Assembly: GCA_030019445.1 (NCBI GenBank)
Contig: JASEEU010000001.1
Coordinates: 372,001-436,000 of the forward strand
Length of the DNA: 64,000 nt
Direction of reading: 5' to 3'
From: Anaerosomatales bacterium
GTDB lineage: Bacteria; Actinomycetota; Coriobacteriia; Anaerosomatales; Anaerosomataceae
The notes beneath the pieces are model-generated. The model was given only the letters and a program-made list of their open reading frames with translations, searched no databases and had not been told where the DNA came from. Both the position numbers and the translations under genes were made by a program. Shown here piece by piece: positions 42,521 to 61,642 of this stretch (positions are counted from its first letter, which is position 1; each line of letters begins with the position of its first letter).

Positions 42521-42596
42521 TGGGGTGTGGTGTAACTGGCAACACGTCGGATTCTGGTTCCGAAGAGTCTAGGTTCGAGCCCTAGCACCCCAGCCA
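42521..42596 (+). tRNA. tRNA-Gln (anticodon CUG)
   Basis: Acceptor stem TGGGGTG pairs with CACCCCA, discriminator G, encoded CCA at 42594-42596. Anticodon stem TCGGA/TCCGA encloses the loop TTCTGGT, giving anticodon CUG (codon CAG). The T arm contains GGTTCGAGCC. Followed 5 bases later by tRNA-Glu. Confidence 0.95.
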
Positions 42597-42601
42597 TGAA
42601 C

Positions 42602-42678
42602 GGCCCGTTAGTCTAGTGGACGAGGACGCCGCCCTCTCAAGGCGGAGATCACGGGTTCGAATCCCGTACGGGCTACCA
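42602..42678 (+). tRNA. tRNA-Glu (anticodon CUC)
   Basis: Acceptor GGCCCGT pairs with ACGGGCT (with a G-U at the end), discriminator A, CCA encoded at 42676-42678. Anticodon arm CCGCC/GGCGG encloses CTCTCAA, giving anticodon CUC (codon GAG). The T arm contains GGTTCGAATCC. Confidence 0.95.
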
Positions 42679-44583: not shown

Positions 44584-44923
44584 GGAGTGGGCCAGACGGC
44601 CGCGCGCCCTCGGGCGTGAGGAAAGTCCGGACTCCACAGGGCAGGGTGCCTGCTAACCGCAGGGCGCGGCGACGCGACGGAAAGTGCCACAGAAAAGGAA
44701 ACCCCCTCGGCCTCGGCCGGGAGGAGAGCTGAAACGGTGCGGTAAGAGCGCACCAGCGTCACGGCAACGTGGCGGCTTGGCAAACCCCACCTGGAGCAAG
44801 GGCGAATAGGAGCGGTCAAGGTCGGCCCGACCGACGCTCGGGTATGCCCGCGTGAGGCCGCCGGCGACGGCGGTCCCAGATAGATGGTCGTCCACGACAG
44901 AATCCGGCTTACCGGCCCACTCC
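44584..44923 (+). ncRNA. rnpB: RNase P RNA, bacterial type A
   Basis: Catalytic RNA that matures tRNA 5' ends. P1 is a perfect 10-bp pairing of GGAGTGGGCC (44584-44593) with GGCCCACTCC (44914-44923). The conserved core GAGGAAAGTCCGGACTCCA, AGAAAAGGAAACC, GAAACGGTGCGGTAAGAGC and CAGAATCCGGCTTA are all present. About 340 nt, normal for a GC-rich actinobacterium. The chelatase gene ends 11 bases downstream on the opposite strand. Confidence 0.97.
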
Positions 44924-44933
44924 ACCCACACGT

Positions 44934-59685: not shown

Positions 59686-60357
59686 CTAACCCCGGCGCCT
59701 CTCGCGACGGCGACGCGGCTCGACGACGATCTTGCTGGCGATGTCACGACCGAGCGCGTAGCGCGAGCCCCCGACCTCGACCATCATCGGGCCCTTGAAG
59801 GGCGCGACATCGCAGACCTTCACGGTCGTGCCGGGGAACATGCCCAGCGACGCGAGGTACGTGAGCAGGTCCTCGTCCTCGTCTTCGACACGCAGCACCG
59901 CGGCCTCGCACTCTGATGCCTGTTCGGACAGCGGCTCCCCCATCCGATCGGCCACCGTGCCGTCTGCGGCGGGGATGGGGTGGCCGTGAGGACACTCCGA
60001 CGGGTTGTCGAGGAAGCGCTCCAGGGCCTCCTGAACCCTCGGCGACAGCGCGTGCTCCAGCAGACAGGCGTCCTCGTGCACGTCCTCCCAGGGGATGCCG
60101 AGGGTGTCGACGAGGAACCGCTCGGCAAGCCGGTGGCGCCGGATGATGTCGAGCGCGGCCTTCGTGCCCGCACTGGTGAGCGCGACCGCGGTACCCGGGC
60201 GCGTGATGTAGCCCTGGGTCTTGAGGCGTTTCAGCGTGGCGGTGACGGTCGGCCCTGAGACGCCGAGCTCCTCGGCGATCTGCGTCGGGCGGACGTCTCC
60301 TCGCTCGGCAAGCTTGTAGATGGTCTCGAGGTACTCCTCGAGCGTCGCGCTCGGCAT
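59686..60357 (-). CDS. DtxR-family iron-dependent regulator with C-terminal FeoA/SH3-like domain
   Basis: 223 aa. HTH (about 1-65: LEEYLETIYKLAERGDVRPTQIAEELGVSGPTVTATLKRL), dimerisation/metal domain (about 66-140), and a FeoA/SH3-like domain (about 150-215). By alignment to DtxR, ligands Cys98, Glu101, His102 (primary) and His75, Glu79, His94 (ancillary) are present; the position of DtxR Met10 is Glu8, as in MntR-like proteins. The presence of Cys98 favours iron sensing. CPHGHPIP follows. ATG at 60357 behind GGAGG. Likely autoregulates this regulator-feoB operon. Confidence 0.9.
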   Translation of the reverse strand: MPSATLEEYLETIYKLAERGDVRPTQIAEELGVSGPTVTATLKRLKTQGYITRPGTAVALTSAGTKAALDIIRRHRLAERFLVDTLGIPWEDVHEDACLLEHALSPRVQEALERFLDNPSECPHGHPIPAADGTVADRMGEPLSEQASECEAAVLRVEDEDEDLLTYLASLGMFPGTTVKVCDVAPFKGPMMVEVGGSRYALGRDIASKIVVEPRRRRERRRG

Positions 60358-60409
60358 CCCGACCTCCGGTGTCAGTCGCACGAGTCGTGCGAACGGACGT
60401 GCTTAGCCC

Positions 60410-60438
60410 AGTCTACCAGGCATGAGTAGCGTTCGTAA
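60410..60438 (-). promoter_or_regulatory. Promoter of the DtxR-feoB operon
   Basis: Minus strand: -35 TTACGA (60433-60438), 17-base spacer, -10 TAGACT (60410-60415) preceded by TGG (extended -10). About 50 bases upstream of the ATG. No clear DtxR/IdeR box was recognised over it. Confidence 0.5.
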
Positions 60439-60477
60439 GCCGCTGTCCGACGCATCATGAACGCCCGCGACTCGTCG

Positions 60478-60522
60478 CCGTCCGGAGTCCTTCCATCCCT
60501 GGCGCGGCTCCGTCCGGAGTCC
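60478..60522. repeat. 13-base direct repeat pair
   Basis: CCGTCCGGAGTCC occurs at 60478-60490 and again at 60510-60522, 32 bases apart start to start. They lie upstream of the DtxR promoter and downstream of the reverse reading of the RNA promoter. Possible regulator sites; function unknown. Confidence 0.5.
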
Positions 60523-60568
60523 ACCCGCATCCGTTCATCAGGAATGCGGACGATCTCCCCAATCCGCC

Positions 60569-60598
60569 TTGACGCGGGGGCGGACGCTCGCCTAGAGT
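60569..60598 (+). promoter_or_regulatory. Promoter of the intergenic structured RNA
   Basis: -35 TTGACG (60569-60574), 18-base spacer, -10 TAGAGT (60593-60598). The expected +1 (about 60605-60606) coincides with the 5' base of a perfect 10-bp closing stem, and no coding gene starts downstream on this strand. Confidence 0.7.
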
Positions 60599-60605
60599 GA
60601 GAGCC

Positions 60606-60774
60606 GTCCCGAGAGGTCGGACCGATCGAACCTCGAAAGGCAGCGTACCAGTAGCTACCGGACGGGGCGTCGGCAGGAAGGCACCGTGTGAGCGGGCCGG
60701 GTGGCCGGGGTCCTGGAAGGCAAGAAACGGGAAGCTGTTGAGTAGTGGCCCTCGTAGGTAAGGTCTCTCGGGAC
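60606..60774 (+). ncRNA. Orphan structured RNA of unknown family
   Basis: About 170 nt with its own promoter in the 450-base gap between the DtxR gene and queD. Closing stem: GTCCCGAGAG (60606-60615) with CTCTCGGGAC (60765-60774), exact over 10 pairs and extendable by G-U pairs. Nested inside are ACCU/AGGU (60630-60633 with 60756-60759), CAGC/GCUG (60641-60644 with 60734-60737), CAGGA/UCCUG (60674-60678 with 60711-60715) and GGCC-GGGU-GGCC (60695-60706). No long reading frame. It could be a 6S-like RNA or a member of the raiA-type class, but neither was confirmed; no SRP, tmRNA or RNase P signature is visible. The 3' end is not well defined. Confidence 0.6.
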
Positions 60775-60807
60775 ATCTCTGTGCCCTGATGACCTGCGGT
60801 GCCGTCC

Positions 60808-61173
60808 TTACGGGCGGTAGACGAGCCGGGCCACGGGCGACTCCCACACCGCGACCTCGGTGACACGAACCTGCTCCCCGACCTTCTCGGCCAGGCGCTC
60901 GCAGATCACGCGGGCGAGGTTCTCGGCGGTCGGGCTCACCGTGTCGAACGGCGGCACCTCGTTGATGTAGACGTGGTCGAACTCGGCCAGCACCGCCGCC
61001 AGGTCGGCCTTGAGCGCCTTGAAGTCGTAGACGATCCCGATGTCATCGAGCGCTTCCCCCGCAACGGTCACCTCGACGTCCCAGGTGTGCCCGTGAAGGT
61101 TGCGGCACTCGCCCGGATACCCGTAGAGCGCGTGGGCCGCATCGAAGTGGCCTTTGATCGTGAGCTCGTACAC
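60808..61173 (-). CDS. queD: 6-carboxytetrahydropterin synthase QueD
   Basis: Second step of the 7-deazaguanine (queuosine) pathway. GHFDAAHALYG and GECRNLHGHTWDVEV supply the three zinc histidines and the catalytic Cys; the C-terminal EVAVWESPVARLVYRP has the Glu. 121 aa, normal. GTG start at 61173 with GGAGG 8 bases upstream; a GTG three codons earlier overlaps that site. No other queuosine gene is in the window. The stop lies in a small hairpin CCGTCC-TTAC-GGGCGG. Confidence 0.93.
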   Translation of the reverse strand: MYELTIKGHFDAAHALYGYPGECRNLHGHTWDVEVTVAGEALDDIGIVYDFKALKADLAAVLAEFDHVYINEVPPFDTVSPTAENLARVICERLAEKVGEQVRVTEVAVWESPVARLVYRP

Positions 61174-61174
61174 C

Positions 61175-61642
61175 CTACTCACCTCCGAAGAGCGCGTCCT
61201 GTCGCCACGAGCCGCTGCCGCAGCGGTCGCCGACGGATGTCCGCGCATCCATGGCCTCGTTGGCGAGCGCGTCAGCCTCCGCGTTCTCCGCGCGTGGTAC
61301 GTGGCGGACGTCGACCCGCTCGAATCGAGCCATCGCCGATACGGCGGCGGCGTAGAGCGGCTTGAGATTGGGGTGCTTCACGCGGTACTCACGGCGCAGC
61401 TGCTTGACGATGAGCTCGCTGTCCATGCGGACTTCGAGCGCACGGGCTCCCCGCTCGGCGGCGGCCTCGAGGCCGAGGAGAAGACCCTCGTATTCGGCGA
61501 CGTTGTTGGTGGTCTCGCCGAGGTACCGGCCGGCACGACAGACGATCTCGCCGGAGTCGTCTCGAAGGATGATCCCCGCGCCTGCGGGACCGGGGTTGCC
61601 GCGCGCTCCCCCGTCGGTGTTGAGCACCCACGTGCCGGGCAT
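61175..61642 (-). CDS. rnhA: Type I ribonuclease H
   Basis: 155 aa. The active-site DEDD residues lie in NTDGGARGNPG, AEYEGLLLGLEAA, RMDSELIVKQL and ENAEADALAN. The sequence matches RNase HI of the archaeal/sporulation-like subtype without a hybrid-binding domain. Removes RNA from RNA-DNA hybrids. ATG at 61642 overlaps the stop of the zinc-ribbon gene (ATGA); its 3' end abuts queD. Confidence 0.93.
   Translation of the reverse strand: MPGTWVLNTDGGARGNPGPAGAGIILRDDSGEIVCRAGRYLGETTNNVAEYEGLLLGLEAAAERGARALEVRMDSELIVKQLRREYRVKHPNLKPLYAAAVSAMARFERVDVRHVPRAENAEADALANEAMDARTSVGDRCGSGSWRQDALFGGE

Follow-up and report, generated by a model that had tools for sequence, protein, structure and literature searches.

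6S RNA is a rod-like molecule that has its own promoter and internal-loop sequences that are not near-invariant. RNAIII of Staphylococcus aureus is driven by the LytTR regulator AgrA, comprises about 514 nt, encodes a peptide, is branched and pairs with mRNAs. Families of free-standing structured RNA that occur in nearly all members of a bacterial order are rare, and the majority of the known ones (6S RNA, tmRNA, RNase P RNA, raiA/ModT) matter to core physiology. raiA/ModT (RF03072) is a structured RNA of about 200 nt from Actinomycetota and Bacillota, an abundant molecule that influences growth transitions in trans (PMC11706538).

The 64,000-nucleotide stretch from an Anaerosomatales bacterium that we analyzed, here termed the window, very probably contains a real gene for a further folded RNA that does not code for protein. 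On the plus strand, positions 60606 to 60775 specify a predicted molecule of 170 nt with G60606 as its 5' end, and our family model R2 matches it over its full length (1-170) with a score of 154.9 bits. Structured RNAs that stand alone in this way are already known as a general kind, and the function of this one may likewise turn out to be of a familiar type.

Relation to known families, promoter and coding status

The original prediction, made from the sequence alone, had offered a 6S-like or raiA-class RNA or else a new family. The two named classes are not supported. The window reaches the gathering cut-off neither of 6S RNA (RF00013) nor of raiA RNA (RF03072), and a separate copy of each resides elsewhere in the same genome, raiA at G000:C1:40748-40977 (157 bits) and 6S RNA at G000:C11:128139-128301 (57 bits, cut-off 46.4). 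A comparison with Rfam 15 gave nothing on the RNA of the window, either at the gathering cut-off or, in the window region, at E values up to 10; likewise, in 24 loci from relatives the RNA was not overlapped by any match with an E value of 1 or less. The best chance matches in the window region are far under the cut-off (sodF_sRNA, 18.7 bits, and ASpks, 15.2 bits, on the other strand). Conversely, R2 found no match at E up to 10 on the raiA locus of the same genome, the 6S RNAs of two relatives and two rRNA loci, such that 60606-60775 was its sole match in a search of the window together with raiA, 6S and rRNA loci. These results support a new family, and its novelty is confirmed in the sense that it has no relative in Rfam 15 at the thresholds applied. 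A search of the openly accessible journal literature on RNAs of these groups returned nothing on the RNA locus. The RNA shares general traits with raiA/ModT, but the latter branches at a multi-helix junction whereas the RNA from the window forms a rod without branches and differs in its core motifs, and the two do not match in sequence or structure in either direction.

A sigma-70-type promoter, TTGACG-18-TAGAGT (60569-60598, plus strand), points into the RNA as originally proposed and is the one promoter-like site within 60360-60900, a region for which shuffled sequences lead to an expectation of 0.1. Its -35 element (TTGACG, 60569-60574) is separated by a spacer of 18 nt from the -10 element (TAGAGT, 60593-60598), which ends 7 nt before the 5' base of the RNA. 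Both elements are recognizable in 69 of 95 copies as compared to 30 of 94 control windows, and the commonest position of the -10 element among the 95 copies is again 7 nt before the RNA, i.e. the distance between promoter and RNA is conserved. Transcription from this promoter would start at the first base of the closing stem, and the RNA would then accumulate as a stable molecule. No reading frame is conserved through the RNA, as any given frame is open in at most 49 of the 95 copies. An intrinsic terminator was looked for and not found in the window copy, for which reason the 3' end of this RNA is not fixed. A T-rich stretch immediately 3' of the closing stem is present in 49 of 95 copies.

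Fold and covariation of the RNA

Taken by itself, the window sequence folds only moderately better than its shuffled versions (z -2.4), and the structural case from one sequence is therefore no more than suggestive; it is comparison that decides. Comparing copies established how and on which strand the RNA folds, where its promoter lies, that it is conserved at an ancestral locus and that it does not code for protein. The fold was assessed in a structure-blind alignment of 49 copies (A1). Here, 92.3% of cells are paired and 24 of 45 pairs have changed on both sides, with none of these measures attained by any of 500 shuffles. Sliding the partners by one to three columns lets pairing fall to 47% or less. 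The original prediction had asked for covariation in relatives and had named a lack of stem conservation or covariation as its refutation; the outcome is the opposite, the stems being both conserved and covarying. Among all column pairs of the alignment, covariation is highest (32.1) at one of the canonical base pairs of the fold, which belongs to the helix formed by 60640-60643 and 60735-60738. Upon inclusion of divergent copies (96 model matches), 35 of 45 pairs exhibit double-sided changes in 587 cells versus 191 in shuffles, figures from an alignment that was fitted to the structure and leans towards it. As an independent check, the five-pair form of this top covarying helix was anchored on its flanking motifs and found 90.1% paired in 91 copies, with pairing dropping to 36% or less when one side is slid by one base. 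In every one of the 49 copies, folding is better for the plus than for the minus strand (consensus -92.5 versus -65.9), and the reverse strand was for this reason rejected as the RNA.

The closing stem P1 connects 60606-60618 with 60762-60774. Proposed as a stem of 10 bp, it is in fact longer and comprises 13 bp including two G.U pairs; it is 99.7% paired in the 49 copies, with G-C replaced by A-U at pair 6. From there, the RNA is predicted to continue without branching as a rod, which is made up of about ten short helices and capped by a GNRA tetraloop (GUGA in the window, 60688-60691). The apical loop conforms to GNRA in 93 of 95 copies, in the variants GCAA, GUGA, GCGA, GAAA, GUAA and GAGA. 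Purine-rich internal loops would break up the rod, among them the near-invariant core segments GUACCAGUAGC (60645-60655) and GAAACGGGAA (60724-60733) that lie opposite each other across the rod and consist of invariant or near-invariant columns in alignment A1 as well as in other classes. A local hairpin, GGCAGC-GUACCAGUA-GCUGCC, was also considered as it fits many copies and nearly that of the window. It was rejected because its strands are unmatched locally in other classes, where compensating changes preserve the distal pairing. In some copies (L102:4011-4216, L103, L104 and L112), a hairpin-like insert of about 20-35 nt is present between the core GAAA and GGGAA with the remainder intact, which suggests that this position is tolerant and solvent-facing.

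With its length of about 170 nt, which is similar to that of 6S RNA, its unbranched rod shape, separate promoter and free-standing layout, the RNA calls to mind a divergent 6S RNA, which would bind RNA polymerase as a mimic of an open promoter. We consider this highly improbable: an RNA passing the Rfam cut-off for 6S exists separately in the same genome and this cut-off is passed in eight of 13 genomes searched, whereas the RNA from the window does not match 6S. Furthermore, it lacks a single large central bubble and, unlike 6S RNA, features near-invariant internal loops, a GNRA cap and one to three paralogues. In the reading that we favor, the near-invariant internal loops and the tetraloop would instead provide the surfaces at which a conjectural protein partner binds or a tertiary fold is held together. 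Alternatively, GUACCAGUAGC and GAAACGGGAA might be seeds for pairing with target mRNAs rather than sites of tertiary or protein contacts. Outside the closing stem, no other part of the RNA is as conserved as these segments, and LytTR-driven RNA is known to pair with mRNAs elsewhere (AgrA/RNAIII), but both are embedded in the rod opposite each other and are conserved across classes that probably have few targets in common. A base-pairing small RNA thus appears unlikely to us, and structural or protein contacts are preferred as the role of the two segments.

Distribution, copy number and gene neighborhood

A DNA search detected homologues in 50 of 61 genomes including that of the window, mostly at 70-77% identity and often in two to three copies per genome. 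Within the order (Anaerosomatales and allied lineages of the class Coriobacteriia), a covariance model built from 49 copies detected the RNA in 63 of 69 genomes and in 49 of 51 near-complete ones, the number of copies per RNA-bearing genome ranging from one to three. A second model, derived from 96 matches, revealed full-length RNAs in other lineages of Actinomycetota (29 genomes out of a phylum-wide sample of 396), while none of about 80 sampled genomes of Coriobacteriia outside the order contained the RNA. Candidatus Aquicultor (class Candidatus Aquicultoria) is among the matches beyond the order, which named records place in Coriobacteriia. Matches of a short pattern in contigs of Lachnospiraceae and other scattered genomes are unsupported by the family model and were treated as chance, as were those in viral contigs, for which the best model match has an E value of 0.13.

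The genome of the window harbors two further copies on contig C18 that are 96% alike. They reside in 300-nt repeats (L032:4346-4645 and L032:5950-6249), 1,604 bp apart, that flank a gene resembling MBL-fold hydrolases. Two nearby copies, in tandem or in opposite directions, also occur in some genomes of family f12. In genome G014, two contigs (L015:1676 and L043:3881) break off within the RNA or at its edge, a pattern that would arise if the assembly had failed on near-identical copies. Copy numbers taken from draft genomes may be too low.

In the window, the RNA is preceded by a divergent gene for a DtxR-type iron/manganese repressor with an FeoA domain (59686-60381; Pfam PF02742, PF01325 and PF04023) and followed by a convergent queD gene (60808-61248; 6-carboxytetrahydropterin synthase family, Pfam PF01242). 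Both genes are on the minus strand, just as had been noted at the outset. The RNA sits between dtxR and queD in about 20 of the 49 loci aligned first and also in further families of the order. queD marks the ancestral locus. In other classes, queD is located near the RNA on the opposite strand at L095 and, with one intervening gene, at L099; the same is true for rnhA, which directly neighbors the RNA at L091 and is separated from it by one gene at L087 and L092. This recurrence of queD or rnhA as neighbors in other classes suggests that the locus has a single ancestral origin. In the family to which the window belongs, a further set of RNAs, paralogous to the first, is situated downstream of gatB. 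Elsewhere in the window, an RNase P RNA (class A, 44584-44927) and two adjacent tRNA genes (42521-42675) are encoded on the plus strand.

Its location beside genes for a metal regulator and a pterin enzyme, together with structure and promoter, could indicate that the RNA is a cis-acting leader, a riboswitch or an attenuator of a neighboring gene. This possibility, to which we ascribe very little weight, is largely refuted by orientation, as the flanking genes run opposite to the RNA both in the window and at the majority of such loci. Moreover, the genes downstream differ between paralogues and classes and include queD, rnhA, a cation-efflux-like gene and an MBL-fold gene. Since flanking genes are on the opposite strand or variable, the RNA most likely acts in trans. 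A promoter of its own, a conserved covarying fold, no conserved frame and no common downstream gene on the same strand are thus found together, i.e. the properties of a free-standing structured non-coding RNA, and the regulatory type of RNA proposed for this locus is supported.

We infer that the RNA is transcribed and functional, and think it rather probable, if by a limited degree, that it represents a new family of structured RNAs that stand alone and act in trans, probably as protein-bound particles, and are switched by a LytTR regulator in the order. It would act in trans as a stable particle in the style of raiA/ModT and would not regulate its neighbors. The RNA is old enough to be shared by several classes and its ancestral locus can be traced. 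More tentatively, with a confidence somewhat short of even, it may be regarded as an ancient RNA of housekeeping type in deep-branching Actinomycetota that works beside 6S and raiA RNA in a dedicated RNA-protein particle and has come under LytTR control in Anaerosomatales. If this were true, it would constitute the third global RNA regulator in these genomes after 6S and raiA.

Upstream repeats and predicted control by LytTR regulators

Within the order, direct repeats (ACCGTTCGTC/ACCGTTCAGC) that recur with a period of 21 bp precede the promoter. The boxes have the consensus ACCGTTCGTCG/ACCGTTCAGCG and are positioned near -137, -117, -96 and -75. Over all copies, 225 box matches were counted on the RNA strand versus 30 on the opposite strand and 26 ± 3 in shuffles, and self-similarity of the upstream regions peaks at lags of 21 and 42. 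Two-box arrays number 75 in the 9.75 kb that precede the RNAs versus six in 862 kb of other DNA from the same loci, an enrichment over flanking DNA of about 1,000-fold that is somewhat inflated because the box matrix was trained on those same upstream regions. At the chosen threshold, a two-box array is seen in only 46 of 78 copies of the order. In the window, a matrix scan placed the proposed LytTR sites at 60477-60541 on the plus strand, with three boxes in phase at 21 bp (TCCTTCCATCCC at 60488, TCCGTCCGGAGT at 60509 and TCCGTTCATCAG at 60530) and one out of phase (GCCGTCCGGAGT at 60477), all of which are degenerate or weak except for the last one at 60530.

AlgR, a regulator of the LytTR type, recognizes the core site CCGTTCGTC, and LytTR regulators bind repeats spaced by about 12 bp, which for repeats of 9 bp amounts to 21 bp from start to start (PMC4064291; PMC6193735). 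Direct repeats 11-13 bp apart and upstream of the -35 element, as in LytTR-dependent promoters, are a property of the family in the order and are weakly developed in the window copy, the last strong box of which is farther from the -35 element than the published 10 bp. We infer, with good support from the motif, that the RNA is subject to LytTR-dependent activation in Anaerosomatales. A response regulator of the AlgR/AgrA type bound to the 21-bp-phased repeats would activate synthesis of the RNA, the level of which would then track an external signal. The promoter architecture of the RNA would in this way predict its regulator. The proposed logic, in which direct repeats arranged in pairs allow a LytTR response regulator to drive a structured RNA, is that of RNAIII, although LytTR control is only predicted here; RNAIII differs from the RNA of the window in length, encoded peptide and branched structure, and homology is not claimed.

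The repeats could also be sites for an activator other than LytTR, for example a general one related to growth rate or of nucleoid type, with the RNA itself being as described. The motif is similar to that of AlgR from a distant phylum and a LytTR regulator is only proposed. Conversely, the core, the strand, the distance of 21 bp and the placement upstream of -35 fit published LytTR sites, and no such array is present directly upstream of the promoter of the rRNA operon in the same genome. We therefore deem a different activator rather unlikely, albeit worth bearing in mind, and retain LytTR as the predicted type of regulator. Other classes lack the upstream array and feature A/T-rich upstream stretches instead, so that control via the repeats is probably specific to the order and was added in that lineage.

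LytTR proteins are encoded in all 13 genomes of the order that were searched, and their co-occurrence with the boxes is uninformative as all genomes tested encode such proteins, whether they have the boxes or not. One REC-LytTR protein was confirmed by Pfam. A REC-LytTR gene at L162:1057-1800 (also at L158, L160 and L168) holds a conserved place across the order between genes for a glutamate-synthase-like oxidoreductase and a secreted or membrane-anchored protein, and its product is a candidate for the regulator of the RNA. A genome-wide search for box arrays with a loose pattern returned a few candidate targets and was too noisy for naming a regulon. In the genome of the window, two-box arrays with a spacing of 21 bp also exist at L129:1500, L151:1500, L156:1500 and L127:1500, loci that are possible members of the same regulon; the array at L129:1500 lies immediately upstream of an open frame (L129:1589) that probably encodes a membrane protein.
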